Of a DNA stretch of 33,756 nt, positions 1 through 28,293 are shown one piece after another. Made by a program: the position numbers and the translations under genes. A model generated the notes under the pieces. It saw nothing but the letters and a program-made list of their open reading frames with translations. It was not told the DNA's origin and did not search any database. The stretch is from positions 1 to 33,756 of the forward strand of contig JAQGJX010000194.1 of assembly GCA_028290405.1 (NCBI GenBank). Reading direction: 5' to 3'. Origin of the DNA: Hyphomicrobiales bacterium (GTDB lineage Bacteria; Pseudomonadota; Alphaproteobacteria; Rhizobiales; Beijerinckiaceae). Within the stretch, counting starts at the first letter, position 1. The number at the start of each line of letters is the position of its first letter.

Positions 1-1414
1 GGCCCGCCGCCAGCCACCCCGCCGTGTAGGCCAGCGCGGGCGCCGCCTGCGACAGGCGGCCCTTGTCGAACGCCACGTACACGCAGGCGCCGAACGCCAG
101 CGCGACCGCCGCCAGATCAAGCGCCGCGCCCCGGCGCGACGCGCGCCAGTCTCCCGACGCGAGCCGGTGCGCGAGATAGCCAGCCACGACGGCCAGCAGA
201 GCGCCGAGCGGGAAGGTGGCGTCCGCCGGACGGCGGAAGAGATCGGACCCGGGAATGTGGAACGCGTAGGAAAACGCCGGCGTGTACTGGCCCAGCGCAT
301 AGAGCGTCATCGCCAGAGCCGCGAGGGTGAACACGCGCGCCTCGCGCGCCAGCAGGCCGGCGCGCAGCAGGCCCACGCACACAAGCGCCACGAACGGCAG
401 GGCGCCGACGTAGACGTCCGCCATGTTGCGGGCGAGCGCGAGATTGTTGGCGCCCCAGAAGGCCGGGTTCGGCGGCCCCCAATAGTCCGCGAACGGCCCG
501 TCGACGCCGAACAGGTTGGCGGAAACCAGCGTGAAGAACGCGCCCGGGTGAAGCGAGCCGCCCGCCGCGCCCTCGAAGGTGATCGCCGCGCGGTTGGACT
601 GCGCGGCGAGCGCCAGCGTCAACGCGATGGGGAGCGCGATCACGAGGGCGCCGACGAGGACCCCGGCCCCGAGCGGCGCGATGAGCGCCCGCAGGCGGCG
701 CCAGGCGAGCCCGCCCTCGACGATCCGCCAGGCGGCCACGAGGACGAGGATGAACGTGCAGAGCCACGCCACCTGGTCGCGCCCCACGACCATCAGGCCG
801 GCCGTGAGCCCCGCCAAGGCGCCCCACAGAACAGACGCCCGGTCGATGGCGCGCAGCAGCAGCCAGAGGGCGACGGCGAACCACGCAAGGCTCAGCACCT
901 GTCCCACGTGCTGGATGCGCCACGCGTTCGAACACCCGAAGGCGAACACGAGCCCAGCCACGAGCCCGCCGGCGGGATGCCAGCCGCGATCGCGAAACAG
1001 CATCATCATCGCAAGCCCGCCGAGCGCCAGCATGGCGAACACGACCGCGTCGAACGCCACGAAGGACGGGGCGGAGTCGAACAGGGCGAGCAGCAGGTGC
1101 GGCGGCGAGAAGATGAGCGATTGCGGATCGGCGATCTGCGGATGGCCGCCAAACACGTTGGGCGTCCAGAACGGCGACTGCCCTTCGTGCAGCGAACGCG
1201 CCAGGAAGGCGAGCTGGGGATAGAAGTGCGCCTTCGCGTCCCACGGAATGGTGACCGCGCCCGAGAGCCACGGCCATGCGAAGAACAGCGCCCCGGCGCC
1301 GAACAGCACGAACGACAGCAGAACGGCCGAGACGTCGCCCGGCCGTTTCGCTTGCTCGAAATTGTCTTTGGAAGCGGCCTGCGCCGGGTCCGGCCTAATC
1401 GTTTCCTGCGCCAT
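1..1414 (-). CDS. YfhO-like multi-spanning membrane protein (C-terminus beyond the left edge)
   Basis: An open frame runs leftward from an ATG at 1414 off the window edge (at least 471 codons). After about 27 polar residues comes a first membrane helix, then a periplasm-like loop with an acidic residue in a WDAK segment and a QIADPQ segment, then many hydrophobic helices. This layout recalls YfhO/GT-C type membrane proteins, which are known or suspected to move sugars from lipid carriers onto outer-face acceptors. The ATG lies inside the end of ribA, a 20-nt overlap, so the two are probably translated together and this gene is last in that unit. The family call rests on overall pattern only. 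The antisense strand is also open over most of the stretch but has no hydrophobic organisation. Confidence 0.7.
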   Translation of the reverse strand, partial: MAQETIRPDPAQAASKDNFEQAKRPGDVSAVLLSFVLFGAGALFFAWPWLSGAVTIPWDAKAHFYPQLAFLARSLHEGQSPFWTPNVFGGHPQIADPQSLIFSPPHLLLALFDSAPSFVAFDAVVFAMLALGGLAMMMLFRDRGWHPAGGLVAGLVFAFGCSNAWRIQHVGQVLSLAWFAVALWLLLRAIDRASVLWGALAGLTAGLMVVGRDQVAWLCTFILVLVAAWRIVEGGLAWRRLRALIAPLGAGVLVGALVIALPIALTLALAAQSNRAAITFEGAAGGSLHPGAFFTLVSANLFGVDGPFADYWGPPNPAFWGANNLALARNMADVYVGALPFVALVCVGLLRAGLLAREARVFTLAALAMTLYALGQYTPAFSYAFHIPGSDLFRRPADATFPLGALLAVVAGYLAHRLASGDWRASRRGAALDLAAVALAFGACVYVAFDKGRLSQAAPALAYTAGWLAAG

Positions 1415-2519
1415 AAACGGTGAGCTGATCCACGTCGATGTAATGACCGGCGCGATCGCGTTTCGAGGCGAGATAGCGCACGTTATGATCGTTCATGCGA
1501 CCCAGGATACGCTGGTCGGACGCCACCTCGAGACCCGCGGCGCGCAGGGCCGCGATCTTGACCGGATTGTTGGTCATGACCCGGACGCTGGCGACGCCAA
1601 GCTGTTTCAGCATTTCGGCCGCGAAGTCAAACGCGCGCTGGTCGTGGTCGAAGCCCAGCACCTCGTCGGCGTCGTACGTGTCGAAGCCCTGCGATTGAAG
1701 CTTGTAGGCGCGCATCTTGTTGGACAGGCCGTTGCCGCGCCCTTCCTGGTCCAGATACAGCAGCACGCCGCCGCCGTTCTGCGCCATGAATTGGGCCGTG
1801 TGACGCAGCTGGTCGCCGCAATCGCACTTGAGGCTGCCGAACAGATCGCCCGTGAGGCAGGCCGAGTGCAGGCGCACCGTGACGGGCTTGGAGAAGTCAG
1901 GCTTGCCGATGACGATGGCCACCTGGTCGCGCAGGCCTTCGCCGCCGCGGAACACCACGAACTCGGTGTCGGGCGCGCCTTCCAGCGGGACGGGCGCGCG
2001 GCCCACGATGGACATGACGACGGCGCTGCGGCCGCGATATTCGAAGATGGCCGCCGCTTCCGCCATCAGCAGGCCGGATTCGGCCGCCGCCTTCGCGGTG
2101 ACGGGCAGCACGACGACGGCCGGCAGGATGAGCGCAAGGCGCACGATCTCCAGCGCCGCGCGGTCCAGCGCCGACAGGGCCGCAACGGGCGCGTCGAAAC
2201 GGGCGCCGGTTTCAAACGACAGCGACGCGACGCGCGCAAGATCGATGGTGGGGAGCGCGATGACGCCCGGCTCCGTGCGTTCCAGCCCGAGGCGGCGCAG
2301 GCGCGGGGCGGGCAGCACGAGGCGCGAGCGGCCGCGCGCGAGCGCGTTGAGGCGCGCCGCAAGGCGAGGATCAAGGGACTCGACACCGACCACCATGACG
2401 TGGGAGCGTCCCGCATGGACGAGAACCGGGCGGCCCGAACGCAATTCAGAAATGACGCGATCCACGGCGATCTGGTTCGCCCCGCCGTCCATCCCTAGTA
2501 TAGTCTTGTTCTCGGACAC
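1395..2519 (-). CDS. ribA: GTP cyclohydrolase II with degenerate DHBP-synthase-like N-terminal domain
   Basis: 374 aa. The C-terminal half (about 185-374) is a complete GTP cyclohydrolase II, which opens GTP to formate, pyrophosphate and 2,5-diamino-6-ribosylamino-pyrimidinone phosphate. The three zinc cysteines are Cys221, Cys232 and Cys234 in the CLTGD...CDCG motif. The DQEGRGNGL loop, Tyr272, Arg295 and the TNNP motif (316-319) match residues proposed as catalytic in E. coli RibA. The N-terminal half (about 15-180) resembles 3,4-dihydroxybutanone-phosphate synthase but lacks the acidic DDExREnEGD loop, so it should be inactive. The start is GTG at 2519, preceded by GAGG 5 nt upstream; the in-frame ATG at 2492 has no usable site. 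It is divergent from a RibD-type reductase and overlaps the downstream membrane gene. It could be the housekeeping riboflavin enzyme or belong to the local cluster. Confidence 0.93.
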   Translation of the reverse strand: MSENKTILGMDGGANQIAVDRVISELRSGRPVLVHAGRSHVMVVGVESLDPRLAARLNALARGRSRLVLPAPRLRRLGLERTEPGVIALPTIDLARVASLSFETGARFDAPVAALSALDRAALEIVRLALILPAVVVLPVTAKAAAESGLLMAEAAAIFEYRGRSAVVMSIVGRAPVPLEGAPDTEFVVFRGGEGLRDQVAIVIGKPDFSKPVTVRLHSACLTGDLFGSLKCDCGDQLRHTAQFMAQNGGGVLLYLDQEGRGNGLSNKMRAYKLQSQGFDTYDADEVLGFDHDQRAFDFAAEMLKQLGVASVRVMTNNPVKIAALRAAGLEVASDQRILGRMNDHNVRYLASKRDRAGHYIDVDQLTVYGAGND

Positions 2520-2630
2520 ACGATCCTCGACTGGCTTGAGCGCAAGGGAGCCAAATCTGGCGGACGGTTAAGTAGACACGCCCTGTCACGGTTCCATAGC
2601 GCAAATTGGTAAATTTCTCCAGGAGACTTC
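2520..2630. promoter_or_regulatory. Divergent promoter region between ribA and the RibD-type reductase
   Basis: This 111-nt gap separates two genes read in opposite directions, so it must hold both promoters. It is AT-richer than its surroundings near 2603-2616, where AAATT and AATTT form a small inverted repeat. A clear AGGAG ribosome binding site sits just before the rightward ATG at 2631. I cannot assign -35/-10 boxes with confidence, and no FMN riboswitch-like structure is evident. Confidence 0.5.
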
Positions 2631-3368
2631 ATGGTCCCGCCGCAGCAGGCGCTTCCGTCCCCGTCGTTCGCTGACGAAGCCAACAGTTCAGATACGTATA
2701 CGGCTATTTTTAGATCACTGCACGATGCGCCTCCCGGCAGGCCGTTCGTGGTCGGCCAGTTGGGACAGTCCCTGGACGGGCGCATCGCGACGCTGACGGG
2801 AGACTCGCGCTACATCAACGGCGCCTGCGCGCTCGACCACCTGCATCGCCTGCGGGCCGCGGTGGACGCGGTGCTGGTGGGCGCGGGCACGATCGCGGCG
2901 GACGATCCGCAACTCAACGTGCGCCGCGCTCCCGGCGCAAGCCCCGCCCGCGTGGTGCTGGATCCGAACGGGCGAACCTCCGCGACAGGCCGCTGGCTCG
3001 CGGACGACGGCGCGCGGCGCATCGTCATATCCGCCCACGAGCGCGCGACGCCCGCCGGGTGCGACGAGGTGATCGTGCTGGCGCGCGCCGAGGGGCGGCT
3101 GTGCCCCAGGGCCATCGCGCAAGCGCTGTTCGAACGCGGCTTGCGGCGCATCCTTGTGGAGGGCGGCGCGCAGACCATCTCGCACTTCATCGACGCGGGC
3201 GCCATGGACCGCTTGCATGTGCTCGTCGCGCCGGTCATCATCGGCTCCGGCAAGCAGGGGCTCGATCTCGCGCCCATCGCGCAATTGAAGCACGCCCTGC
3301 GGCCGCCTGTGCGCGTCTGGCCGTTTGCGGACGGCGACGTCCTGTTCGATTGCGATCTCAAGGCCTGA
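2631..3368 (+). CDS. Stand-alone RibD C-terminal-type (pyrimidine/dihydrofolate reductase fold) reductase
   Basis: 245 aa. After a roughly 35-residue leader, the protein shows the RibD reductase fold: SLDGRIA near residue 50, the GAGTIAADDP motif that binds NADPH and substrate, the LVEGG motif, and a C-terminal VAPVIIG strand. The zinc deaminase domain of bifunctional RibD is absent. The order therefore resembles the fungal and archaeal pathway, where reduction precedes deamination. The likely reaction is NADPH reduction of a ribosylamino-pyrimidine phosphate, possibly the product of the adjacent RibA. A strong AGGAG site 6 nt before the ATG fixes the start. The cytochrome b561 gene begins 17 nt downstream. 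The exact substrate is inferred. Confidence 0.85.
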   Translation: MVPPQQALPSPSFADEANSSDTYTAIFRSLHDAPPGRPFVVGQLGQSLDGRIATLTGDSRYINGACALDHLHRLRAAVDAVLVGAGTIAADDPQLNVRRAPGASPARVVLDPNGRTSATGRWLADDGARRIVISAHERATPAGCDEVIVLARAEGRLCPRAIAQALFERGLRRILVEGGAQTISHFIDAGAMDRLHVLVAPVIIGSGKQGLDLAPIAQLKHALRPPVRVWPFADGDVLFDCDLKA

Positions 3369-3385
3369 ACCGCCGGGGCTCCACG

Positions 3386-3961
3386 ATGACCTCAACCAGC
3401 CTGCGCACGAACCCGCACAATCGTCCCCTGCACTACGCGCCGGTCAGCAAGACGCTGCACTGGGTGACGGCGGTGCTGGTGCTGGGGCTGATCCCCGCCG
3501 GGATCGTCATGGTCAACATCGGCGAAGGCGCGCTGCAGAACCTGCTGTTCAACATGCATCGCTCCTTCGGCGTCGTGGTCTTCGCGCTCGCGCTCTGGCG
3601 CGTGGCGGCGCGGATCGCCTACGGCGCGCCCGCGGCGGCCGCCGGCCTCACGCGCTTCGAGCGCGTCGCGTCGACGACCGTCCATTACGCCCTCTACGCG
3701 CTGCTGATCGCGCAGCCGGTCGTCGGCTGGCTGATGACCTCGGCGTACCCGGTCGACGTCTCGGTCTTCGGCCTGTTCACGCTGCCGCACCTCGTGCATG
3801 AGGACAAGGCGCTGTTCGAGGCCCTCCAGCGGGCGCACTTCGTCGGCGGGCTGACGATGGCCGGGCTGGTGCTCGTCCACATCGGCGCGGCCCTGAAGCA
3901 CACGTTCGTCGACAAGGACACGGTTCTGTGGCGCATGCTGCCCAGAAGCTGGGGCGGCTGA
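3386..3961 (+). CDS. Cytochrome b561 family di-heme membrane protein
   Basis: 191 aa with four predicted membrane helices and the bacterial cytochrome b561 layout. Conserved histidines lie in each helix: TLHW (His25) in the first, NMHR in the second, TVHY in the third and LVHI near the end. These would ligate two b hemes and carry electrons between the quinone pool and a periplasmic or membrane partner. The frame is open well upstream through the reductase gene, but the ATG at 3386 gives the normal family N-terminus and lies just after the reductase stop. It is probably co-transcribed with that gene. Its stop abuts the end of the convergent methyltransferase gene with only 1 nt between them. 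The electron partner is unknown. Confidence 0.88.
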   Translation: MTSTSLRTNPHNRPLHYAPVSKTLHWVTAVLVLGLIPAGIVMVNIGEGALQNLLFNMHRSFGVVVFALALWRVAARIAYGAPAAAAGLTRFERVASTTVHYALYALLIAQPVVGWLMTSAYPVDVSVFGLFTLPHLVHEDKALFEALQRAHFVGGLTMAGLVLVHIGAALKHTFVDKDTVLWRMLPRSWGG

Positions 3962-3962
3962 C

Positions 3963-4811
3963 CTAACCGGGCGTCGCCCACACGTCTTCATGGCCGATGC
4001 TGCACGAAGCCGCAGGGGTGCGCGCCGCCAGCCATGCGGCGACCTCGCGGGGCTCCAGGCGCCCGGTTTCGAGAACCGCGCCGGCCGCGCCTTTCGCAAG
4101 CTCGCTCATGAGCGCGAAATCCGATGCGCCAAGCCGCCAGGGAGAGAGTTCGCGCGCCACGCGGTAGCCGTTAGCGGCCAGCGACCCCGCCAGCGCCTGG
4201 ACGGCGCGCGGGCCGGCGGCTGGGCCAAAGCCCTTGTCGCTTTGCTGGTGCGCGTGAAACGCGGCCAGCATCGCGGCGTCGCCGGCGTGGGGCGGCTCCC
4301 AGGTCTCCCGGCCGTCGTAGGTGAGCACCGTGTAGAGCGGAAGGCCCCGCGCCGCGAGCGCCTTGCAGAACCCCTCGATCCATTCCGGCGAGACAAGGTC
4401 GAAGAACGCGGCGGCGGTGACGAGGTCGGGCGCGGGATCGAGCACGCTCTCCAGACGCCGCGCGAGGTCGGCCTGCCGGAAGCGCACGTCAATGCGCTTG
4501 CCGTCTTTCATGATCGACAGCGCGCCGTCGTCTTGCGCGCCGTCTTGCTGCGCATCGTCGGCCCATTGCGCGAGCGCCGCGCGTGCGTGGGCGAGAAGGC
4601 CTGAGTCCCAGTCCACCAGCGTCCAGCGCTGGCGCGCTCCCAGGTGCGGCGCAAGTCCGCGCAGGTTGGATCCGGAGCCGCAACCGAGGTCCACAACATG
4701 CAGGCCGTCGCGCGCCGCGAACCGCTGCGCGACGCTGGCGCGCAGGCTGGCGCTGACCGAGCGATGGTCGATGGGCTCGCGCAAGGCCAGCCAGTCCGCC
4801 GAGAAGCTCAT
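3963..4811 (-). CDS. Class I SAM-dependent methyltransferase
   Basis: 282 aa. The SAM-binding glycine motif VDLGCGSG lies at about residues 40-47, followed by an acidic motif II (LVDWD) and a DLVTAAAFFDLV motif IV-like segment. No membrane segment or signal peptide is seen, so it should act in the cytoplasm. The ATG at 4811 shares ATGA with the stop of the upstream glycosyltransferase gene. This translational coupling makes it the last gene of the PTPS-like, glycosyltransferase and methyltransferase unit. The acceptor is unknown. Context suggests a small molecule made or modified by the preceding enzymes, but that is inference. Confidence 0.85.
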   Translation of the reverse strand: MSFSADWLALREPIDHRSVSASLRASVAQRFAARDGLHVVDLGCGSGSNLRGLAPHLGARQRWTLVDWDSGLLAHARAALAQWADDAQQDGAQDDGALSIMKDGKRIDVRFRQADLARRLESVLDPAPDLVTAAAFFDLVSPEWIEGFCKALAARGLPLYTVLTYDGRETWEPPHAGDAAMLAAFHAHQQSDKGFGPAAGPRAVQALAGSLAANGYRVARELSPWRLGASDFALMSELAKGAAGAVLETGRLEPREVAAWLAARTPAASCSIGHEDVWATPG

Positions 4812-5881
4812 GTGCGTTCCTTTCGCGCCACGTCGCGCAGCACGCGCGCCACGATGGCGGCCGCGTCGTCCCATGTGGGCAGCGCTTCGGCCGCCCGCGC
4901 GGCGCCGGCCGACAGACGCGCGCGCGCGCCCGGCTCCGTCAGCGCAATGCGCAGCGCCGCGCCCAGCGCGGCGGCGTCGTCGGGCGGCACTTTCAGCGCC
5001 GCGCCGTCCGGCAACGTGTCGGCCGCCGCGCCGCCCGTGGTGGCGACGATGGGCAGCGCGCGCGTCATCGCTTCCGCCAGCACCATCCCGTAGCCCTCGT
5101 AGCGCGAGGCGGAGACGAGCAGATCGGTCGACCCGTAGAGGTCCGCAAGGTCCTCGTCGCCAGCGGCGCCCATGAGTTCGATCCGCTCGTTCAGCCCCGC
5201 GCGGGCGATGCGCGCCCGCAAGTCCGCGACGCAATCCGGCGCACGGTCCAGCGCGCCCACGATGCGCAGCCGCCAGGCGAGCGCCGCGAGCGGCGCCAGC
5301 GCCTCCACGAGCACGTCGTAGCCCTTGCGGGGCACGAGAGAGCCCACCGCCAGCAAGTTCAGGACGGTCCCGCCGCCCCCGCGCGCCCGCGGCGCCCTGT
5401 CGACGCCCGGCTCCGCCACCGCGATGGTCCCGCGGGCCACCCCGAGGCGCTCCACCAGCGTCTCGCGGGTGGCGGCGCTGGTGACGACCACATGGGCGGC
5501 GCGCGCCAGGGCGGCGCGCTCGCTGGCCAGCAGGGCTTGCGAGTCAGCCGCAGAGAGGCCGGATTCCAGCCCCAGCGGATGGTGGCACAGCGCCACGATG
5601 GGGGCCGCGACCCGCGCCGCCATAGCGGCCGGAAAGGCCCCCCAGGCGAGTCCGTCCACCAGCAGCACGTCGCCCGGCGCCGCGCCCTCGAGGGCCGCGC
5701 GGGTCGCCTCGAGGTCTTGCGGCGTGGGACGCGGATAGGAGCCCGGAAGGGGCAGGACCCGCGCCTCGACCCCGTGGGCGCCGAGGCGCTCCAGCACGCG
5801 CCGGTCATAGACATAGCCGCCCGTGGGCGTGTCGAGGTCGCCCGGAATGGCGAAAACGGCGCGGACGGGCGTGTGCGTCAC
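4808..5881 (-). CDS. GT-B glycosyltransferase, family 4 type
   Basis: 357 aa. The C-terminal nucleotide-sugar domain holds the AVGSLVPRKGYD segment, an LVSASRYEGYG segment with an EX7E pair (Glu262 and Glu270), and a PIVATTGGAAADTL segment. These are all typical of retaining GT4 enzymes that move sugar from UDP-, GDP- or ADP-sugar. The N-terminal Rossmann domain has a GGYVYDRR acceptor-side loop. Start is GTG at 5881, which overlaps the PTPS-like stop as GTGA; a much longer open frame upstream only shadows the PTPS gene. Known GT4 enzymes glycosylate pterins in cyanobacteria, so a pterin-like acceptor is plausible next to a PTPS-fold gene. The acceptor is not shown by the sequence. Confidence 0.88.
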   Translation of the reverse strand: MTHTPVRAVFAIPGDLDTPTGGYVYDRRVLERLGAHGVEARVLPLPGSYPRPTPQDLEATRAALEGAAPGDVLLVDGLAWGAFPAAMAARVAAPIVALCHHPLGLESGLSAADSQALLASERAALARAAHVVVTSAATRETLVERLGVARGTIAVAEPGVDRAPRARGGGGTVLNLLAVGSLVPRKGYDVLVEALAPLAALAWRLRIVGALDRAPDCVADLRARIARAGLNERIELMGAAGDEDLADLYGSTDLLVSASRYEGYGMVLAEAMTRALPIVATTGGAAADTLPDGAALKVPPDDAAALGAALRIALTEPGARARLSAGAARAAEALPTWDDAAAIVARVLRDVARKERT

Positions 5882-6279
5882 GCCACCGGGCCTTCGAACC
5901 ACGCCCGGGCCACGTGGCTTTCGTGCAGCTTCACGCGGATCTTCTCGATGCCCTCGCCGCCCGGCCCCAGAGCGCCGCTGCGCGCCGCCCCCGCCATGGC
6001 GTCGAAAATGTACTTCGAGAGATATTCGGTCGTGGTCTGCTTGCCGGCGAACTGCGGCAGCTCGTCGAGGTTCTGGTACGTCAACGGCCCCAGGCACGCC
6101 TTCAGGGCGTCATGGGCGCGGCCGATGTCGACCACGACGGCGTCGCTGGTCAGTTCGGTCCGGTAGAACGCCACGTCCACCACGAACGTGGCCCCATGCA
6201 GCTTCTGGGCGGGGCCGAACAGGTCCCCCTTGAAGGAATGCGCAATCATGATGTGGTCGCGCACTTCAACGGCGTACAT
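5878..6279 (-). CDS. PTPS/QueD-fold protein with degenerate active site
   Basis: 133 aa, the usual length for 6-pyruvoyl/6-carboxy-tetrahydropterin synthases. Fold markers are present: AHSF (His14), LHG (His28), VVDIG (about 49-53), TTEYLSKYI (about 83-91) and the C-terminal KIRVKLHES. Most catalytic positions differ from the family. The Cys of CxxxHGH is Ala24. The second His of HGH, a zinc ligand, is Ala30. The Asp-His pair of the LDHxxLN motif is Thr67-Tyr68. Glu120 in the last strand is kept. A normal QueD or PTPS reaction is therefore unlikely. The AAGGAG site before the ATG is strong. The downstream glycosyltransferase overlaps by 4 nt. It may bind or convert a related pterin by other chemistry. 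Confidence 0.85.
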   Translation of the reverse strand: MYAVEVRDHIMIAHSFKGDLFGPAQKLHGATFVVDVAFYRTELTSDAVVVDIGRAHDALKACLGPLTYQNLDELPQFAGKQTTTEYLSKYIFDAMAGAARSGALGPGGEGIEKIRVKLHESHVARAWFEGPVA

Positions 6280-6366
6280 GGAGGCTCCTTGGCTGTGTTG
6301 AGCGCTCTAGATGAGGCTCACGGGCCGCGATGGCAAGGGGAGAGGCGGCTCTGGACCCGCCGACCC

Positions 6367-7389
6367 TCAATACCGCACCACCACGCCAAGCCCCTTGGCG
6401 CCTGGGGCGAAAATATCCGTCATCGCCTCCGGCATGTCCTCGAACGCCACTTCGCGGTCGATCAGCGCGTCCAGCCTGTCGTCTGCCAGAAGCTCCATCG
6501 CCTTGGCCATGCGGCGCGCGTAGTCCCAGCGCGGGCGGCGGGAGGGCGAGACCTGGCCGACCTGCGTGGAGACGAGGCGCAGGCGGCGGGAGTGGAAGGC
6601 GCCCCCCAGCGGGGCGGGCACGTCGCCCGCGCCGTACCAGCTCATCTCCACGACGCTCGCCTCCAGGCCTGCGGCCCCCAGCGCCAGCGCGAGTCCGGGC
6701 GCGCTGGCGGAGGCGTGGAAGACCACGTCGGCGTCCTTGACGCCGCGGGCGGCCCAGTCCGCCGCGCCGACGAAGCGCGCGCCCAGCGCCGCGCAAACGC
6801 CCTCGCGCGCCGGATCCAGATCGACCATCGTCACGTCCGCCCCCGGCAGGCCCGCGCAGAGATAGCCCACCAGAAGGCCCACCACCCCCGCGCCGACCAC
6901 CACGATGCGGTCGCCCGGCCCCGCGCCCGAATCCCACAGGGCGTTCAGGGCCGTCTCCATGTTGGCCGCCAGCGTCGCGCGCCGGGGCGAGAGCCCGTCC
7001 GGCAGGGGCCGCAGCATCGCGGCGTCGGCCACGAAGGCGCTTTGGTGCGGGTGCAGGGCGAAGACGTTGCGGCCCGCCCAGCCGGGGGGGCCGTCCTCCA
7101 CGACGCCGACCGCGCAATAGCCGTATTTGACCGGGAAAGGGAACGCGCCCTCCTGCAGGGGAGCGCGCATGGATTCGAACTCGGAGACGGGGATGCGGCC
7201 TGAGAACACCAGACGCTCCGTGCCCCGGCTGACGCCCGAATACAGCGTGCGCACCAGCGCCTGCCCGGCGCGGAGCGCAGGCAGCGGCGCGTCCCGCAGG
7301 CTCGCCCGGCCGGGCGCCTCGCACCACAGCGCGCGGGCGTGGGCCCTTGCCGGCGAAGCTTCACGGCTTATTTTTGCGTCGACCGGCAT
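6367..7389 (-). CDS. BchC-like medium-chain dehydrogenase/reductase without visible catalytic zinc ligands
   Basis: 340 aa. The N-terminal GroES-like half contains SGVSRGTERLVF where zinc alcohol dehydrogenases carry their first Cys ligand. This SxGxxxGTE pattern is shared with BchC-type and related zinc-free members. The Rossmann domain shows VVGAGVVGLLVG (GxGxxG), followed by an acidic VDLD, which favours NAD(H). A GGGAG-type ribosome site (GGGAG) precedes the ATG. The PTPS-like gene begins 87 nt downstream on the same strand, so this is probably the first gene of that run. No other bacteriochlorophyll gene is present, so BchC function itself is unlikely. Substrate unknown. Confidence 0.8.
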   Translation of the reverse strand: MPVDAKISREASPARAHARALWCEAPGRASLRDAPLPALRAGQALVRTLYSGVSRGTERLVFSGRIPVSEFESMRAPLQEGAFPFPVKYGYCAVGVVEDGPPGWAGRNVFALHPHQSAFVADAAMLRPLPDGLSPRRATLAANMETALNALWDSGAGPGDRIVVVGAGVVGLLVGYLCAGLPGADVTMVDLDPAREGVCAALGARFVGAADWAARGVKDADVVFHASASAPGLALALGAAGLEASVVEMSWYGAGDVPAPLGGAFHSRRLRLVSTQVGQVSPSRRPRWDYARRMAKAMELLADDRLDALIDREVAFEDMPEAMTDIFAPGAKGLGVVVRY

Positions 7390-7462: not shown

Positions 7463-9265
7463 ATGAACGCCCCACTTGTGGATATGACCCCGGCCGGCGT
7501 CCAGAGCCGCGTGACGCTTTTTGGCCGACGCCTGTTCGTGACGCTCCTGAATCTTGCGACCTTGGGGGCGCTGCTGGCCTGGCTGGCGTCGATTCTTGGA
7601 ACCAGCGGCTGGAGCTGGATCGACGTCGCGATCTTCGTCTGCTTCGCCGTCGCGGCGCCGTGGAGCGTGCTGGGCGTGTGGAACTCGCTCATCGGCGTGT
7701 GGCTGCTGCATCGCGGCGGAAACGTGCTGGAGTCCGTCGCGCCCTTCGCGGCCGCAGGCGACCTGCCCACGCCCGTCACCACCAGGACCGCCGTCCTGAT
7801 GACGCTGCGCAACGAGGACCCGGGCCGCGCCTTCGCGCGCATCGCGGCCGTCAAGGCCAGCCTCGACGCCACCGGGGAGGGCGCGGCGTTCTCGTATTTC
7901 GTGCTCAGCGACACCAGCGAGGCGGACGTGGGGACCGCCGAGGAGGCGGCGTTCGCCGCCTGGCGGGCGCGCGAGGGCGCCTCGGGCGAGCGGCTGCACT
8001 ATCGCCGCCGCACGTCCAACGAAGGCTTCAAGGCGGGCAACCTGCGCGAGTTCTGCACGCGCTGGGGGGCGGGCTACGAGCTGATGCTGCCGCTGGACGC
8101 CGACAGCCTGATGTCTGGCGCGACCATCCTGCGCATGGTGCGCATCGCGCAGGCGTGGCCGAAGATCGGCATCCTGCAGAGCCTCGTGGTGGGCGCGCCG
8201 AGCCGCTCGGCGTTCGCGCGCATCTTCCAGTTCGGCATGCGCCACGGCATGCGCCCCTACACGATGGGCAGCGCCTGGTGGACGGGCGATTGCGGCCCGT
8301 TCTGGGGCCATAACGCGCTGGTGCGCATCGCGCCGTTCGTGGAGCATTGCGACCTTCCGGTGCTGCCCGGCGGGCCGCCGCTGGGCGGGCAGATCATGTC
8401 GCACGACCAGGTGGAGGCGGTGCTGATGCGCCGCGCCGGCTACGAGGCGCGGGTGCTGCCGCAGGAAGTGGAGAGCTGGGAGGAAAACCCGCCCACGCTG
8501 CTCGAATTCACCCGCCGCGACCTGCGCTGGTGCCAGGGCAACATGCAGTATTTCCGCCTGCTCGCGCTGCCGGGCCTGCAGCCCATGAGCCGGTTCCAGC
8601 TCGTCTGGGCCATCTCGATGTTCATCGGCATTCCGGCCTGGACGGCGATCATCGCCCTCAGCGCCCTGAAGCCGCTGGACGGCGAGGACATGGGGCTGTT
8701 TCCCGCCGCCTCGGCGCTGGGCCTCTACGGGGCGTTCATGCTGATGTATCTGGCCCCCAAGCTGGCGGGCTTTCTGGACATCGCGCTCACCCGGGGCGCG
8801 GTGGCGCGCTACGGCGGCGCCGCCTGGTTCGCGCTGGGCGCGCTGGTCGAAATCGCGTTCTCGCTCCTGCTCGCCTCGGCGGTGACGCTGCGCACCAGCC
8901 TGTTCATGATCGGGCTGGCGTTCGGCCGCGCCGTGGTTTGGAACGGGCAGGCGCGCGACGCCCATGCGCTGTCGTGGGACACCGCGGCGCGGGGGCTGTG
9001 GCCCCAGACGCTGTTTGGGCTCGTGCTGCTGGGCGTTGCGTTCGCGCTGGCGCCGAGCCTGGCGCTCTGGTCGCTGCCGCTGACGCTTGGCTACCTCGTC
9101 GCCATTCCGTTCGCGGTCGTCACCGCCGATCCCGCTCTTGGGGAGAGGCTGGCGCGCAGCGGCCTTTGCGCGATACCCGAGGAGTTCGAGACGCCGCAGA
9201 TTTTCGCGGCGCTCGCGGCCAACAGCGTTCCTTCAACTCAGTCACGCCTGCCCGAGGTTGCATGA
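7463..9265 (+). CDS. opgH: Glucans biosynthesis glucosyltransferase H
   Basis: 600 aa inner-membrane processive GT2 enzyme that polymerises glucose from UDP-glucose into the backbone of osmoregulated periplasmic glucans. Two helices (about 22-45 and 53-80) precede the cytoplasmic catalytic domain. That domain shows LSDTS (Asp150), PLDADS with the DxD pair Asp212/Asp214, WGHNALVR, SHDQVEA (Asp315) and RRDLRW, the RxxRW motif. Five or so helices follow from about 370. It is much shorter than the E. coli protein (about 850 aa), as is common in alphaproteobacteria. No opgG-like gene is adjacent. The next gene starts in its stop codon (ATGA). Confidence 0.93.
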   Translation: MNAPLVDMTPAGVQSRVTLFGRRLFVTLLNLATLGALLAWLASILGTSGWSWIDVAIFVCFAVAAPWSVLGVWNSLIGVWLLHRGGNVLESVAPFAAAGDLPTPVTTRTAVLMTLRNEDPGRAFARIAAVKASLDATGEGAAFSYFVLSDTSEADVGTAEEAAFAAWRAREGASGERLHYRRRTSNEGFKAGNLREFCTRWGAGYELMLPLDADSLMSGATILRMVRIAQAWPKIGILQSLVVGAPSRSAFARIFQFGMRHGMRPYTMGSAWWTGDCGPFWGHNALVRIAPFVEHCDLPVLPGGPPLGGQIMSHDQVEAVLMRRAGYEARVLPQEVESWEENPPTLLEFTRRDLRWCQGNMQYFRLLALPGLQPMSRFQLVWAISMFIGIPAWTAIIALSALKPLDGEDMGLFPAASALGLYGAFMLMYLAPKLAGFLDIALTRGAVARYGGAAWFALGALVEIAFSLLLASAVTLRTSLFMIGLAFGRAVVWNGQARDAHALSWDTAARGLWPQTLFGLVLLGVAFALAPSLALWSLPLTLGYLVAIPFAVVTADPALGERLARSGLCAIPEEFETPQIFAALAANSVPSTQSRLPEVA

Positions 9266-10278
9266 AGCCCTTTCATTTCGCCTGTTTCGCGCTCCTGCTC
9301 AACGCCTCCGCTCTCGCCCAGCCGGCTTTGCCGGCGCCGCCCCCGAAGGCGACGGACGCCGACGACATGGCGGTGTCGGTCGTCAACCGCAGCGAGCCCG
9401 TGCTGTGCGCCGAGAAGGACAACATCCAGGTGGACTTCGTGGCGCCCGCAGGGAGCGCGCCGCCGAAGAGCTTCAAGGTGCAGGCGGCCCATCCCGCCTA
9501 TATCGGCATGATCGCCGTGGACCGCTTCGCGCCCGACTTCACCGCCTGCGACATGAGCGGCGATCCGGCGGTGGCGACCGGCGTGAAGAAGACCGTGCGG
9601 CGCACCATCTTCGAGACGCCCGAGCTGCAACTGGTGGCCTACACGTACCCCACGTTCTGGCGCGGCGCGAACACGCCGATCCGCGTTATCGACAAGGAGC
9701 GCGGGATCGACGAGACGTTCCGCGACACGCATCTGATGCAGGTGTGGACGACCCATCGCGAACGCGCCGAGGAAGTGCTCGTCGTCTATCCGCCGGACGG
9801 CTACTGGCGCGCCCGCCCGCTGCCGTATGCGGAGATGCGCTGGACCGCCTACGGTTCGTCGTTCCTCATCGGCCCCGTGGAATCGCAGCAGCGCCCCATC
9901 GTGGACATCAAGCTCATCACTTTCGACGCGCAGGCCAGAAGCTTCACGCTCGAGTTCGCCCGGGGCGGATCGGCGACCATGAAGATGGACGCGCTCGATT
10001 CCGAACACATGGCGCTGGACGTCTCGTTCCAGGGCGCCCTGCCGCGCGACCTGCCGTTCGCGTCGCTGCGCTCCATGTACATCACCGACGGCAACAACGA
10101 CGCCGCGCGCATCGCCTGGAAGCCCAAGGGCGGGCAGCGCTGGGGCGAGGCGCACATCATGGATTTCAAGGGCGCGGACGCCACGGAAGTCTGGGCGGGC
10201 CGCACCACGGCGTCCCGCCACAACACCTCGGCTCCGGACATGATCTTCGGCCGGTTCAGGGCTGATGGCGCCAGGTAA
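9262..10278 (+). CDS. Unknown exported protein of the opgH operon
   Basis: 338 aa with a clear Sec signal peptide: a basic start, a hydrophobic core and an ALA cleavage site after about Ala19. The mature part looks all-beta, with many alternating hydrophobic strands and Trp/Tyr-rich segments, and two cysteines (in VLCAEKD and TACDMSG) that could form a disulfide in the periplasm. I recognise no catalytic family. Its ATG overlaps the opgH stop by 4 nt and it overlaps the next gene by 14 nt, so it belongs to the glucan operon. It sits where an OpgG/OpgD periplasmic protein would be expected, but I see no OpgG motifs. A glucan-binding or glucan-processing role is inference. Confidence 0.85.
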   Translation: MKPFHFACFALLLNASALAQPALPAPPPKATDADDMAVSVVNRSEPVLCAEKDNIQVDFVAPAGSAPPKSFKVQAAHPAYIGMIAVDRFAPDFTACDMSGDPAVATGVKKTVRRTIFETPELQLVAYTYPTFWRGANTPIRVIDKERGIDETFRDTHLMQVWTTHRERAEEVLVVYPPDGYWRARPLPYAEMRWTAYGSSFLIGPVESQQRPIVDIKLITFDAQARSFTLEFARGGSATMKMDALDSEHMALDVSFQGALPRDLPFASLRSMYITDGNNDAARIAWKPKGGQRWGEAHIMDFKGADATEVWAGRTTASRHNTSAPDMIFGRFRADGAR

Positions 10279-11254
10279 TCTGTCAGGGGCGGGCCGCGCG
10301 CCGCGCATCCCGCTCGTAGATGCGGCGCGCGGGGCGGCGCTGGCCGCCATGACGCTGTATCACCTGACGTGGGACCTCGGGTTCTTCAACCTGATCCCGC
10401 CTGAATGGCCCTTCGATCCGCGTTTCGTGACGTTCGGAAACGCCATCGCGGCGAGCTTTCTCGCCCTTGTGGGAGTCAGCCTCGCCTTGTCGGCGCGCGG
10501 CGGATTGAACCTGCGCGCCTACCTGAAGCGGCTCGCGCTCGTGGCGGGCGCGGCGGGGCTCGTGTCGCTGGCCACATGGCTGGCGTTTCCCGACTCGTTC
10601 ATCTTCTTCGGAATTCTCCATTGCATCGCGGCTGCGAGCGTTATGGCGCTCGCGTTCCTGCGCGCTCCATGGCCGGTCGCGGCGCTGGCCGGGCTGGCGA
10701 TCCTGCTGGCGCCCGCGCTCATCGGCGGGCCGGCGTTCGAGGCCACGCAATGGTGGTCGGGCCTTGGCGTCGTGGAGCCGCGCTCCAACGATTGGCGCCC
10801 GCTCTTTCCGTGGTCGGGCTTCACGCTGCTGGGCCTAGCGGGCGCGCAGGCGCTGCTGGCCCATGGCGTACCGGAGCGTCTGGCGGCGTGGAGGTCCGGC
10901 GGGCCCATCGGGCGCTGGCTGTCGCTGGGCGGACGCCATTCGCTGCTTTTCTACCTTGCGCACCAGCCGGTCCTGTTCGCGCTCGTGTTCCTCGCCTCGC
11001 AGGCCGTCGGGCCGACGCCCCTCGCGGGTCCGCGCGCCAGCGCCGAAGACCGGTTCATGAGCGGCTGCGTGTCGCAATGCGTGAGGATCGGGGCGGTGGC
11101 GGAGAAATGCGAGCGGGCGTGCGCGTGCGTGGTGCGCGACTCGAAGGCCGCGAACCTGTGGGCCGGGGTGACGAGCGAGAAGCTGACCGCCGAGGAGCGC
11201 GCGCGCTACGACGCCCTCACCCGGCAATGCCTGCGGGCCGAACCTGTCCGGTGA
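10265..11254 (+). CDS. DUF1624 (heparan-alpha-glucosaminide acetyltransferase-like) membrane protein with Cys-rich tail
   Basis: 329 aa. Residues about 14-250 form seven or eight membrane helices beginning with the family signature IPLVDAARGAAL followed by LYHLTWD (His33). SFLALVGVSLAL and SLLFYLAHQP near residue 235 are also typical. The relatives are membrane acyltransferases. Following opgH and an exported protein, it may add acyl groups to periplasmic glucan, playing the part of OpgC; this is inferred from context. The last 70 residues form a soluble tail with seven cysteines (CVSQC, EKCERACAC and a late QCL), unusual for the transmembrane core. It starts 14 nt inside the preceding gene and ends exactly against the convergent fumC stop. 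Confidence 0.83.
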   Translation: MAPGNLSGAGRAPRIPLVDAARGAALAAMTLYHLTWDLGFFNLIPPEWPFDPRFVTFGNAIAASFLALVGVSLALSARGGLNLRAYLKRLALVAGAAGLVSLATWLAFPDSFIFFGILHCIAAASVMALAFLRAPWPVAALAGLAILLAPALIGGPAFEATQWWSGLGVVEPRSNDWRPLFPWSGFTLLGLAGAQALLAHGVPERLAAWRSGGPIGRWLSLGGRHSLLFYLAHQPVLFALVFLASQAVGPTPLAGPRASAEDRFMSGCVSQCVRIGAVAEKCERACACVVRDSKAANLWAGVTSEKLTAEERARYDALTRQCLRAEPVR

Positions 11255-13381: not shown

Positions 13382-13750
13382 TCAATCGTCGAGCAGATAG
13401 GCGTGCTGCGGGTCGGCGGGCGTGCCCTCAAGCGCGCCGCCTTCCGCGCCCGGCCGCCATGTCGCCAGGTCCTCGATGCGCCTGGCGAGCTCCAGGTCGC
13501 GCGCCGTGACGCCGTCGGCGTCGTGGCTCCACAGCGAGACCTCCACGCGTCCCCAGGACAGCGCCAGATCGGGATGGTGCCAGGCGGCTTCGCACAGATG
13601 CCCGATGGCGTTCACCAGCATGAGCGCGCTCTTGAACCCCTGCACGCGATAAACGCGCCGGATCGCCTTCCCGTCCAGCCGCCAGCGCGGCAGGCCGCGG
13701 GCCAGGGCGGCGGCGACGTCGACGGGAGCCAGTGCGGGCTGGATCGCCAT
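13382..13750 (-). CDS. phhB: Pterin-4a-carbinolamine dehydratase
   Basis: 122 aa. The family motif is intact: His58-His59-Pro60 in AAWHHPDL, then the VEVSLWSHDADGVTARD segment with His76 and Asp85. The enzyme dehydrates 4a-hydroxy-tetrahydropterin so that the pterin cofactor of aromatic amino acid hydroxylases can be recycled; homologs also act as DCoH-like binding proteins. An in-frame extension to 13825 is possible, but the ATG at 13750 gives normal length and has an AAAGG site upstream. No phenylalanine hydroxylase gene lies in the window. Together with the pterin-like cluster 6 kb away it hints that this organism handles tetrahydropterins. Confidence 0.92.
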   Translation of the reverse strand: MAIQPALAPVDVAAALARGLPRWRLDGKAIRRVYRVQGFKSALMLVNAIGHLCEAAWHHPDLALSWGRVEVSLWSHDADGVTARDLELARRIEDLATWRPGAEGGALEGTPADPQHAYLLDD

Positions 13751-20700: not shown

Positions 20701-21315
20701 TCAGCCGGCGCTCCAGCTCTGCCACATGCCCAGTTCGAAAACCTGCAGGTCCACCGCTTTCAGCAGCGCGCCGCAGACCACCATCACGTCGGTGGCGGCC
20801 ACCAGCGTGCGGCCGCCGAGAATCGCATAGCGCTCCCCGGCTTCCTGGTTGGCGGCGTAGAGCTTGCACAGCGAGGCGACGAGCGCCTGCTGGGCGTGGG
20901 GCTGCAACTTGCCCATGTCGCCCGTCTCCAGCATGCGCTCGATGGCGGCCGCGAGCTGCAGGGCGGCGTCGGACTCGGGCGTGTTGACCACGACCGGCGG
21001 GGCGGGAATGCGGCGCAGGACCTCGACGCGCGGCGCCTGTGCGGCTGGCGCGGGCGCGAACGGGCTGCCCTTCTTCTCGACGAGCTTGCGGGACGCCGCG
21101 CTGTTGGGAGCGACCCCCTTGGCCATGGCCTTCAGGAACGCCGCCTTGTCGGCGGGCGCGGTGCGTCCGGCGCCGCCGGCGGCCTTCGCCGCGCGGGCCG
21201 GGGCGGGGGCGGATTTCGCGACGGCCTTCGCCGGCGCAGCCTTGGCCTTCGCGGCCTTGGGGGCGGGCTTGAGGCCGGGTTTGGCGCCTGATTTGGCGCG
21301 CTCAGGCGACGACAT
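20701..21315 (-). CDS. Unknown protein with Lys/Ala/Pro-rich N-terminus
   Basis: 204 aa, family not recognised. Residues 1-60 are a low-complexity Lys/Ala/Pro tract like histone H1 or PHA granule-associated tails, certainly disordered and strongly basic. Residues about 60-110 are linker-like. Residues about 115-204 look like a compact helical domain with ALQLAAAIERML, ALVASLCKLYAA and a hydrophobic TDVMVVCGALLKAVDLQVFEL stretch, ending in MWQSWSAG. It starts 14 nt inside the Rieske gene and ends 51 nt before the amidohydrolase, so it belongs to the same operon. It may be an accessory subunit joining the two. The helical domain contains two cysteines but no metal motif. Confidence 0.75.
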   Translation of the reverse strand: MSSPERAKSGAKPGLKPAPKAAKAKAAPAKAVAKSAPAPARAAKAAGGAGRTAPADKAAFLKAMAKGVAPNSAASRKLVEKKGSPFAPAPAAQAPRVEVLRRIPAPPVVVNTPESDAALQLAAAIERMLETGDMGKLQPHAQQALVASLCKLYAANQEAGERYAILGGRTLVAATDVMVVCGALLKAVDLQVFELGMWQSWSAG

Positions 21316-21667
21316 AGACCTCGTCCCCCTTCTGCACGACGTCGTACTTGCGCAGCTTGAGCCGGGGATCGGAAATGTGGGCGCCGGTCTTCATGTCGTA
21401 CTCGTAGCCATGCCACGGGCACACGAAGTTCATGTCCTTCTCGGAGAAGAACAGGCCCATGGAGGTCTTGTCGGGACGCAGGCGCTCCTCGACGCGGGCG
21501 ATGGTGAGCCCCTCGCAGGCCGGGCCGCCCTGGTGGAGGCAGAAATTGCTGTAGGCGTAGAATTCGCCTGCGTGACGGAACACGCCGATCTCAGCCTCGC
21601 CGATGCGGATGATCTGGCGCTCGCCGTCCTTGAACTCGGACGCCTTGCCAACGAACTGCTCTGCCAT
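21302..21667 (-). CDS. Rieske [2Fe-2S] ferredoxin-like protein
   Basis: 121 aa single-domain protein. Cluster ligands are Cys43 and His45 (CLH) and Cys83 and His86 (CPWHGYEYD). The spacing between the two motifs is 37 residues, about 20 more than in typical Rieske ferredoxins. The extra loop carries a VEERLRPDK segment. It probably carries electrons in the cytoplasm, since no signal peptide is present. GGGAGG precedes the ATG. It heads the operon with the unknown protein and amidohydrolase. A perfect palindrome lies 89 nt upstream. No oxygenase large subunit is nearby, so its partner is unclear. Confidence 0.9.
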   Translation of the reverse strand: MAEQFVGKASEFKDGERQIIRIGEAEIGVFRHAGEFYAYSNFCLHQGGPACEGLTIARVEERLRPDKTSMGLFFSEKDMNFVCPWHGYEYDMKTGAHISDPRLKLRKYDVVQKGDEVYVVA

Positions 21668-21731
21668 GGGCGTCGCCTCCCTGTGTTTCTTGAAGAATTA
21701 TGGCGGCAATCTGCGCCGGATGCGGGCCCCC

Positions 21732-21776
21732 GTCCAAGGTTTTCGCTTTGGGTCTGTCCAAAGAATTTCTTTGGAC
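21732..21776. promoter_or_regulatory. Perfect 21-bp palindrome with a second imperfect copy: putative operator
   Basis: GTCCAAAGAA (21756-21765), one central T, then TTCTTTGGAC (21767-21776) is a perfect inverted repeat. A related imperfect dyad with GTCCAA at 21732-21737 and TTGG at 21748-21751 lies 24 bp away, about two helical turns. The pair lies between the lysR stop and the Rieske start on the same strand, consistent with tandem binding by the LysR regulator. The perfect arm could alternatively be a terminator hairpin for lysR, but no T run follows. Confidence 0.65.
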
Positions 21777-21783
21777 GGTTCGC

Positions 21784-22707
21784 CTATCCGAGGCGGCGGG
21801 CGAACGGAGCCACGCGCTCCACCAGAAGGTCCACGGTGCGCTCCAGAAAGGCGGCGATCTCCGTCTCGTGCGCGAAGGGCTCGCGCTCGCTGGCGCGCAC
21901 CACATAGAGCGTGCGGGTGAGCGCCGGGCGGTCGATGCGCTGGCCCACCAGTTCGCCGCCGCGCAGCGCGGGCGCCGCGAGGCTGAAGGGCATGATGCTC
22001 GCCGCTTCGCCCCGGGCGATCATGGCCCGCATGGACGTGACCGAATGCACCTCGAGGGCGAGGCGCACGCGCAGCGAGAGCCGCCGGGCTTCGTCCTCGA
22101 CGATGCGCCGGATGACGCCGCGCGAACCGGCGATCACCAGTTCGCGCTCCAGCGCTTCGGCGAAACTCACGCTGTCCGGGACGGCGGCGCCGCTGGGGCC
22201 CGTCACCAGCAGCAGGTCCTCCTCCGCCACGGCGCGCCGGTCAAGGCCCGGCCGGTCCGCGATGTTGTAGAGGAACGCGACGTTGATCTGCCCGCGGTCC
22301 AGCGCGTCGAGCAGCACGGGCGTGCGCTCCTCCACCAGGCTCAGGGACACGTTGGGCATTTCGTCCCGGGCGCGGGTGATGAGCTCGGGCCCCAGCATCA
22401 GCACGATGCTGGGGTTCACGCCGAGCAAAAGATGGTCCTGGGTGCGGCTGCCCAGCGAGCGCAGGTCCGTGCGGGCGCGGTCCACCTGCGCGAGGATTGC
22501 GCGGGCGCGCTCGTGCAGCAGCCGGCCCGCCTGCGTGGGGGACACGCCGCGCGAGTGCCGCAGCAGCAGCTTCACGCCCAGCTCCTCCTCCAGCTGCCGG
22601 ATCTGCGCGCCGAGCGCCGGTTGCGCGAGGCCCAGCCGCTCGGCGGCGGCGGTCATGCTGCCGGCGTCGACGATCTTCACGAAATAGGAAAGCTGGCGGA
22701 AGTTGAT
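21784..22707 (-). CDS. LysR-type transcriptional regulator with apparent ATC start
   Basis: About 307 aa. An N-terminal winged helix-turn-helix reads NFRQLSYF, SMTAAAERLGLAQPALGAQI and LEEELGVKLL; an effector-binding domain follows to residue 300. The family start would align with the ATC at 22707, which reads INFRQLSYFV. GGAG sits 9 nt before it at 22717-22720, and the nikR-like stop lies 18 nt upstream in the same frame. No ATG, GTG or TTG occurs between that stop and the GTG at 22680, which would remove nine residues of the first helix. It is last in the run soxBDAG, nikR-like, lysR. Likely targets are the Rieske operon just downstream or the sox operon. Confidence 0.85.
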   Translation of the reverse strand: MNFRQLSYFVKIVDAGSMTAAAERLGLAQPALGAQIRQLEEELGVKLLLRHSRGVSPTQAGRLLHERARAILAQVDRARTDLRSLGSRTQDHLLLGVNPSIVLMLGPELITRARDEMPNVSLSLVEERTPVLLDALDRGQINVAFLYNIADRPGLDRRAVAEEDLLLVTGPSGAAVPDSVSFAEALERELVIAGSRGVIRRIVEDEARRLSLRVRLALEVHSVTSMRAMIARGEAASIMPFSLAAPALRGGELVGQRIDRPALTRTLYVVRASEREPFAHETEIAAFLERTVDLLVERVAPFARRLG

Positions 22708-22725
22708 GGCGGCGCGCTCCGCGAC

Positions 22726-23193
22726 TCAGAGAACCGGCGTGCTGTGGGTGTGCGAATGGCCATGGTCGCCATGGCTGTGGTGGTGCGCGTCCGTGCGGAT
22801 GGGCACAAGGTTGATCTGGCCGAAGCGCACGCCGCGTTCCGCGATCACCGTCTCGGCCAGCTTGCGCACCGCCTCCGTGTCGCCCTTCAGCATGGTCACT
22901 TCCATGCAGTGGCGGTGGTCGAGCCGCGTGCGCGTGGAGGCGATGGTGAGGTCGTGGTGCTCGTGCTGGGCGCGGTCCAGCCGCATCGCGAGATCGCGGC
23001 CGTCGTAGTCGTACACGTACGACACCGCGGCCACGCACTCCTTGGTGAGGGGCGCGGCGTCCTTGTCGCGCACGAGGGAATCGCGCACCAGGTCGCGGAT
23101 GGCCTCCGAGCGGTTGCTGTAGCCCTTGGCCACCATGAACACGTCGATGGCTTCGGCGATGCTGTCGTCAAGGCTGATGGTCAGTCGCTGCAT
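22726..23193 (-). CDS. NikR-like ribbon-helix-helix regulator with altered metal site and His-rich tail
   Basis: 155 aa. The N-terminal ribbon-helix-helix (MQRLTISLDD, then GYSNRSEAIRDLVR) and the C-terminal ACT-like domain (SYVYDYDGRDLA, MEVTMLKGD, VIAERGVRFG) match NikR throughout. Of the four nickel ligands known in E. coli NikR, the first His (His77) and the Cys (Cys96) are kept. The two His of the HVH pair are Arg88 and Arg90. A new His95 stands beside the Cys. A C-terminal tail of about 20 residues holds eight His. A GGGAGG-type site precedes the ATG. It follows soxG by 37 nt, with no nickel transporter or urease gene around. It may sense another metal or none. Confidence 0.85.
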   Translation of the reverse strand: MQRLTISLDDSIAEAIDVFMVAKGYSNRSEAIRDLVRDSLVRDKDAAPLTKECVAAVSYVYDYDGRDLAMRLDRAQHEHHDLTIASTRTRLDHRHCMEVTMLKGDTEAVRKLAETVIAERGVRFGQINLVPIRTDAHHHSHGDHGHSHTHSTPVL

Positions 23194-23230
23194 GACGCCC
23201 CTCCCGGCGGGCTCTGAGCGGTCCTGAATA

Positions 23231-27007: not shown

Positions 27008-27014
27008 CAGCGCC

Positions 27015-28277: not shown

Positions 28278-28293
28278 GCCTTCGTTGCCGCTC

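Follow-up and report, generated by a model that had tools for sequence, protein, structure and literature searches.

Two kinds of described system come close to the gene cluster that is the subject of this report. One is the riboflavin route of archaea and fungi (ArfA, ArfB, ArfC/Rib7), together with BrbF, a Sinorhizobium protein of the creatininase family that, according to PMC9478397, removes the formyl group from the ring-opened GTP product and was not replaced there by two more distant homologues. The other is the PTPS fold of COG0720, for which PMC5041015 gives the motifs CxxxHGH, CxxxxxHGH and ExxHGH and describes PTPS-IV and PTPS-V as subgroups outside I-III, with F420 named for PTPS-IV and the function of PTPS-V called unclear. 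The cluster considered here lies at one end of a 33,756-nucleotide stretch of DNA from a Hyphomicrobiales bacterium (JAQGJX010000194.1; the window), which is the whole of contig C173 of genome G000 (4.07 Mb, 223 contigs, 99.65% complete). Eight genes at this end likely encode a dedicated, previously undescribed pathway starting from GTP, and we put at about 0.5 the probability that this pathway leads, by riboflavin-type chemistry, to a glycosylated and methylated pterin-type metabolite.

What such clusters have in common with the archaeal and fungal route and with BrbF is a predicted reduction without deamination and a creatininase-family formamidase, and an ArfA-type enzyme likewise occurs in the Haloarcula form of the cluster. 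Unlike that route, the window cluster has no adjacent lumazine or riboflavin synthase, and it carries a dehydrogenase (DH), a PTPS-like protein, a glycosyltransferase (GT) and a methyltransferase (MT). A literature search that covered open-licence papers found none on this gene set, which does not imply its absence from print. The PTPS-like family itself is not new, as the structure of a Streptomyces homologue (3d7j) has been public since 2008; as far as the open-licence literature tells, the new elements are a cluster that crosses domains, its coupling to GTP-opening enzymes, and its presence in genomes that lack FolE.

The locus

The eight genes are:

1-1414, minus strand: YfhO/PMT_2-like polytopic membrane protein, cut by the contig end (median length of relatives, 767 aa)
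1395-2492 (or start 2519), minus strand: RibA, GTP cyclohydrolase II of the PRK08815 type (NF006456, 500.7 bits, cut-off 464)
2631-3368, plus strand: RibD_C, stand-alone reductase without deaminase domain (PF01872, 127 bits)
3386-3961, plus strand: cytochrome b561 (PF01292, 96 bits)
3963-4811, minus strand: MT, class I S-adenosylmethionine methyltransferase (PF13649, 32 bits, cut-off 27)
4808-5881, minus strand: GT, GT4 glycosyltransferase (PF13692, 91 bits)
5878-6279, minus strand: PTPS-fold protein of the SCO6650 type (PF01242, 70.3 bits)
6367-7389, minus strand: DH, zinc-free MDR dehydrogenase (no conserved zinc ligands)

Genes were called by codon-model gene finding and named from profile searches (Pfam, NCBIfam), and all eight genes that a first-pass annotation had named within 7.4 kb were recovered. 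The 4-nt overlaps that it reported among the PTPS, GT and MT genes are present at PTPS/GT and at GT/MT, the overlap of ribA with the membrane gene is 20 nt, and the RibD-type reductase indeed matches PF01872 only, with no deaminase domain. The GT protein scores above the cut-off of GT4 profiles, while the MT has no solved structural relative at E<=0.01. The cut membrane protein (1-1414) has no Pfam match; a longer relative scores 25.2 bits against YfhO (cut-off 28.5) and 19.7 bits against PMT_2 (cut-off 26.1), both below threshold. The genes form two blocks, DH-PTPS-GT-MT on the one hand and RibD_C/b561 with RibA/membrane protein on the other. Their earlier description as one set does not hold throughout: the two blocks lie apart in some genomes.

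A proposed pathway from GTP

In the pathway that we favor, RibA (GTP cyclohydrolase IIa in three Haloarcula plasmids) would open GTP to 2,5-diamino-6-ribosylamino-4-pyrimidinone 5'-phosphate, helped in some lineages by a creatininase-family formamidase. RibD_C, having no deaminase partner, would then reduce the ribosyl to a ribityl chain and retain the 2-amino group, as in archaea and fungi. The chemistry of these two steps is established for the enzyme families. In a third step the zinc-free DH would oxidize one ribityl hydroxyl, at C2', to a ketone, and ring closure by the 5-amino group at this ketone would then give a 7,8-dihydropterin; the PTPS-fold protein, whose lyase residues are lost, would hold the intermediate, and its conserved Glu should bind the 2-amino-4-oxo rings. 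Finally, the GT4 enzyme would add a sugar and the MT a methyl group. We infer the third and fourth steps, the step order, the positions of sugar and methyl group, and a product that would be a glycosylated, methylated pterin or pyrimidine, as the first-pass annotation had it. If the ring-closure step is true, the cluster would be a second way to pterins, would explain folate synthesis in genomes without FolE, and would assign a role to an open branch of COG0720.

Conservation of the gene cluster

Scanning of genome contigs yielded 518 confirmed relatives of the PTPS-like protein, and the best 80 loci were kept (the named loci). Neighbors were counted by tblastn (E<=1e-5) within 8 kb of the PTPS gene at loci where the sequence extends 8 kb or more to either side. 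At 47 of the 80 named loci we found GT in 47, DH and MT in 45 each, an MdoH-type membrane glucosyltransferase in 44, b561 in 34, RibA in 29 and RibD_C in 26. A diverse set (the first 30 of 20 + 20 stretches, 25 of them usable with 8 kb on both sides) gave DH in 25, GT in 24, MT in 23, RibD_C in 19, a CDP-alcohol transferase in 10, RibA in 9, a creatininase-family protein in 6, MdoH in 4 and b561 in 3. From these counts, DH-PTPS-GT-MT is the constant core, with RibD_C and RibA next, and the constancy of b561 and mdoH is limited to loci near the window's relatives. Conservation of the gene set far exceeds chance.

Within the order, 54 of 199 genomes encode the PTPS-like protein; within the class, 45 of 385 do. 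The search of the phylum matched 31 of 299 genomes, 12 of them weakly (E 2e-13 to 9e-9); these 12 are probably other PTPS types and were left uncounted. Even genomes of just 1.4-1.6 Mb (26-28% GC in their stretches) keep the core. The cluster extends over Alphaproteobacteria, Gammaproteobacteria (Thiodictyon), Actinomycetota and haloarchaea, on chromosomes and plasmids, and across these groups DH, PTPS and MT stay together, nearly always with GT as well.

Among plasmid records, the PTPS gene adjoins DH in all 19 DH matches at E<=1e-30. A Streptomyces fungicidicus plasmid carries a CDP-alcohol transferase, DH, PTPS, GT4, MT, a creatininase-family protein and RibA; partner order in the Streptomyces clusters differs from that in the window, and their RibA is short. 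An annotated F420-dependent oxidoreductase lies near the S. fungicidicus cluster. Further plasmid clusters were found in Microbacterium, Agrobacterium, Neorhizobium, Peteryoungia, Rhizobium, Palleronia, another Rhodobacterales strain, Methylosinus and the gammaproteobacterium Thiodictyon. Ten haloarchaeal records were found and nine examined. Haloarcula halophila and H. pelagica have the order CDP-alcohol transferase, GTP cyclohydrolase IIa, DH, PTPS, MT. One more Haloarcula record carries GTP cyclohydrolase IIa at DH, which makes three of the nine. This enzyme (NF002587, 315.7 bits) is archaeal and non-homologous to RibA, and performs the same ring opening of GTP. A creatininase-family protein is encoded near PTPS in two Haloarcula plasmids, and RibA, GTP cyclohydrolase IIa or a creatininase-family protein occurs in or near several clusters. 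The dedicated pathway from GTP that the first-pass annotation thought possible is thus likely, given that distant bacteria have clusters of these families and that three Haloarcula clusters have GTP cyclohydrolase IIa. The gene set ranges from AT-rich bacterial genomes of 1.4 Mb to Streptomyces and haloarchaea, which suggests that its metabolite is in wide use; we found no report that names it.

Recurrent neighbors include MdoH (in the window's relatives), the CDP-alcohol transferase, an LPG-synthase transmembrane protein, YceI and b561; of three neighboring proteins annotated as sulfatases, one has a Pfam match. The company of MdoH, CDP-alcohol transferase, the YfhO-like protein, b561 and YceI suggests that the product has its use in the envelope or close to it.

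Some clusters depart from this pattern. Four Streptomyces plasmid records have a PTPS copy without a DH match, and in two of the Streptomyces plasmid loci (L170 and L171) the DH-less copies stand beside MEKHLA-domain, cupin, BTAD-regulator and sigma-factor genes. Variant clusters in Halomicrococcus (L187), Rhodobacteraceae SC52 (L203) and Palleronia (L177) contain an aminotransferase, a ribokinase, or a set of inositol phosphatase, FkbM and PfkB; L203 and L177 have PTPS without an adjoining GT. These variants hint at different end products.

The PTPS-fold protein

Residue counts were taken from 109 aligned rows of retrieved loci, with the window's own copy counted twice; residue equivalences come from alignment with animal PTPS. 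The first-pass annotation was right that the active site is altered: A24 stands at the position of the catalytic Cys and A30 at that of the third zinc His, with Ala in 109 of 109 rows, and the motif A-Q-x-x-H-G-A is likewise found in every row. The position of the Asp-His pair (67-68) is occupied by N/T/A/S and Y/F. His14, His28, Glu85 and Glu120 are invariant (Glu120 in 109/109), and Glu120 is judged from the motif to be the Glu that anchors the base.

An AlphaFold model (mean pLDDT 94.6) has as its best solved match SCO6650 of Streptomyces coelicolor (3d7j; TM-score 0.95, 55% identity), well ahead of E. coli QueD (about 0.71), with human PTPS at 0.77. The protein matches PF01242 and has the T-fold of the PTPS family. 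It shares that fold with the enzymes of COG0720 I-III, but lacks their full set of three zinc His, as well as the catalytic Cys, the Asp-His pair and the subgroup motifs. PTPS-IV and PTPS-V lie outside I-III as the window protein does, and are set beside it by description, not by motif. High full-length identity and the same changed residues place it with SCO6650, which scores 202 bits against the family profile and shares both the Ala-for-Cys and the Ala-for-His change. The relative of SCO6650 in S. fungicidicus belongs to the DH-PTPS-GT-MT cluster with creatininase-family protein and RibA described above. The authors of the SCO6650 structure reportedly found no zinc and no PTPS activity, with the pterin-binding pocket kept, and SCO6655, a GTP cyclohydrolase II, reportedly lies near SCO6650.

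We also considered a role in queuosine synthesis and rejected it because the motif is lost; the genome has no other PTPS match. A toxoflavin-type cluster was likewise considered.

RibA and riboflavin supply

The C-terminal domain of the window RibA is intact, with the zinc motif CLTGDLFGSLKCDCG and an EGRGNGL loop, so that both the zinc cysteines and the EGRGxGL loop of GTP cyclohydrolase II are present. The N-terminal part has no Pfam match and may be a decayed RibB, judging from one forced alignment. The GTP cyclohydrolase II profile matches two proteins of the genome, the window RibA and a RibBA on contig C120 (L198:8883-10037). This RibBA has an intact RibB half, but neither the zinc cysteines nor the EGRGxGL loop remain in its cyclohydrolase half. 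The window RibA is the genome's sole GTP cyclohydrolase II with intact motifs. A canonical ribD-ribE-ribH set is on contig C32 (ribE and the deaminase half were recognized by eye), and window positions 1-7389 contain no RibD deaminase domain, ribE or ribH, so we agree with the first-pass annotation in rejecting a simple riboflavin operon. The second ribA and ribD that it suggested looking for thus exist as a RibBA with lost cyclohydrolase motifs and as the ribD on C32.

The counts of RibA and of taxonomic families were read by eye. Among the 199 genomes of the order, 36 have RibA at 245 bits or more, a cut chosen after viewing the list, and two of these 36 matches contain an internal stop. PTPS occurs in 30 of the 36 RibA-positive genomes vs 24 of the 163 RibA-negative genomes (Fisher p=3e-15, uncorrected for kinship) and, by family, in 12 of 13 vs 7 of 39 (p=3e-6, again uncorrected for kinship); at the curated RibA cut-off, all 8 RibA genomes have PTPS. 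In G065 and G019 the RibA/b561/membrane block is far from the PTPS block, and both are still present. This strong co-occurrence argues against a RibA that serves only riboflavin. The first-pass annotation had named, as the case against its proposal, a ribA that is the only one in the genome and essential only for riboflavin: the copy is indeed the sole intact one, but the co-occurrence with PTPS opposes the "only."

Many genomes of the order have RibBA-sized frames that score just 30-50 bits (compare BrbF in Sinorhizobium), which puts the source of their riboflavin GTP cyclohydrolase in doubt.

The reductase and the dehydrogenase

The best solved matches of RibD_C are 6p8c and 2azn, both named 2,5-diamino-6-ribosylaminopyrimidinone-phosphate reductases, and from these matches the enzyme is predicted to act on the undeaminated substrate. 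The bacterial RibD profiles TIGR00227 and TIGR00326 score slightly above the archaeal TIGR01508. The "zinc-free BchC-like dehydrogenase" of the first-pass annotation is zinc-free, as its conserved columns (invariant or nearly so) include no Cys, and so no set of zinc ligands; the likeness to BchC is weak (29 bits, family cut-off 291) and we do not retain that identity. Several of its nearest solved relatives act on polyols or ketoses; the set includes butanediol, sorbitol, iditol, xylitol, arabinitol and galactitol-phosphate dehydrogenases, and also ordinary alcohol and threonine dehydrogenases.

Folate genes in genomes with the cluster

A strong PTPS match was found in 106 genomes (54 of the order, 43 new ones of the class and 9 new ones of the phylum), and FolE was looked for in 40 of these. 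It is encoded by 37 and absent from G358, G455 and G532. Most cluster genomes therefore need no second pterin source, and we rejected a general bypass of FolE. A search for FolE2 in the three genomes found none. Around folK of the three genomes are pabB, pabA, pabC, folP and folB. Matches to folK were obtained in all three, and the remaining folate genes were judged by likeness to the G455 locus (L195), where Pfam confirms all six; Pfam also confirms folB in G358 (L194).

In a survey of 15 mostly small genomes, nine lack FolE. The three of these with the cluster all have FolK. Among the six without the cluster, G228, G203, G204, G211 and G215 lack FolK and G208 has it. G228, which belongs to the same genus as G455 and G532, is a single contig at 99% completeness. 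The pattern of folate genes is consistent with a cluster that supplies pterin; G208 runs contrary to it, and the completeness of G358, G455 and G532 (94-96%) is a caveat. The cluster may stand in for the missing first folate step in a few tiny genomes.

Weighing the alternatives

Several points weigh against a pterin-type product made from GTP by these genes. To our knowledge there is no precedent for ring closure by a DH and a PTPS-fold protein, and we found no product, substrate or mutant on record. RibA is absent within 8 kb in 18 of the 47 named loci and RibD_C in 21, and in six of the nine haloarchaeal records there is no annotated GTP cyclohydrolase within about 5-7 kb of PTPS. The role given to Glu120 is based on the motif, without alignment to a pterin complex. 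The haloarchaeal PTPS keeps all the zinc His (H..HSH), so the haloarchaeal and bacterial branches may differ in chemistry; the tree puts the former in a separate clade on a long branch. The window RibA probably also feeds riboflavin, because it is the only copy with intact motifs, and deletion of arfA in Haloferax causes riboflavin auxotrophy (PMC8305020), which fits a riboflavin role. The presence of FolE in nearly all cluster genomes tested counts here too, as does G208, which has FolK with neither FolE nor the cluster (the FolE2 search covered G358, G455 and G532).

With RibA and RibD_C as a riboflavin supply, the two blocks might be unrelated neighbors, DH-PTPS-GT-MT and MdoH making or decorating an envelope glycan and the PTPS fold having lost pterin chemistry. 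The lost cyclohydrolase motifs of the genome's RibBA, the blocks that lie apart in G065, G019, G070 and G167, the frequency of MdoH near the named loci (44/47) and the six of 36 RibA genomes without PTPS all suit such an arrangement. It is nevertheless unlikely: RibA co-occurs with PTPS even when unlinked, RibD_C is near PTPS in 19 of the 25 diverse loci where MdoH is near it in 4, GTP cyclohydrolase IIa adjoins DH in three Haloarcula records, G358 has a separate canonical RibA in addition to the cluster RibA, and Glu120 is invariant. Invariance of DH across the diverse loci (25/25) also speaks against a product that stays an open pyrimidine or is flavin-like or lumazine-like, with the PTPS fold binding 2,5-diamino-6-ribitylaminopyrimidinone ahead of direct glycosylation and methylation. 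That RibA, RibD_C and the creatininase family (BrbF, ArfB) are enzymes of ribityl-pyrimidines, and that the lyase residues of the PTPS-like protein are lost, would agree with such a product, but it leaves unexplained both the pterin-type binding fold and the FolE-less genomes with folB and folK, and we consider it improbable.

Those FolE-less genomes might instead suggest that the main product is dihydroneopterin for folate, the cluster being a plain replacement of FolE and GT and MT serving other ends. The retention of pab-folP-folB-folK in G358, G455 and G532, without FolE or FolE2, and the joint absence of cluster, FolE and FolK in the congener G228 agree with this, but with FolE in 37 of 40 cluster genomes, GT and MT retained even at 1.4-1.6 Mb, and G208 keeping FolK without FolE or cluster, it is very unlikely. 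A tentative and rather doubtful extension of the pterin-type pathway that we favor would be a way to pterins that does without GTP cyclohydrolase I, in which RibA and RibD_C would do the first half of FolE's work, ring opening followed by a reduction that replaces FolE's Amadori rearrangement, and DH and the PTPS-fold protein would do the second, oxidizing the ribityl chain and closing the ring to dihydroneopterin phosphate; the product would be a glycosylated, methylated envelope pterin in most hosts, and the route would also serve folate in some streamlined AT-rich bacteria.

Other genes in the window

Three genes follow the cluster, beyond position 7389:

7463-9265, plus strand: MdoH-type membrane glucosyltransferase (NF003963, 921 bits), divergent from DH
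9262-10278, plus strand: conserved gene 3' of mdoH, product starting with a hydrophobic stretch
10265-11254, plus strand: HGSNAT-type protein, after mdoH and the 9262-10278 gene

The product of the 9262-10278 gene has no Pfam or NCBIfam match, and the link of this gene and of the HGSNAT-type gene to the pathway is uncertain. A pterin-4a-carbinolamine dehydratase (PF01329, 92.7 bits) is encoded at 13382-13750, about 7 kb from the PTPS gene. Homologues occur in 12 of the fetched loci, 11 of them at 7.5-10 kb from PTPS and one at 2.8 kb, and it is a possible extra pterin gene. Positions 21302-30189 encode a Rieske-type ferredoxin, sarcosine-oxidase-like alpha and beta subunits and a thiamine pyrophosphate enzyme, a catabolic cluster that is apparently unrelated.

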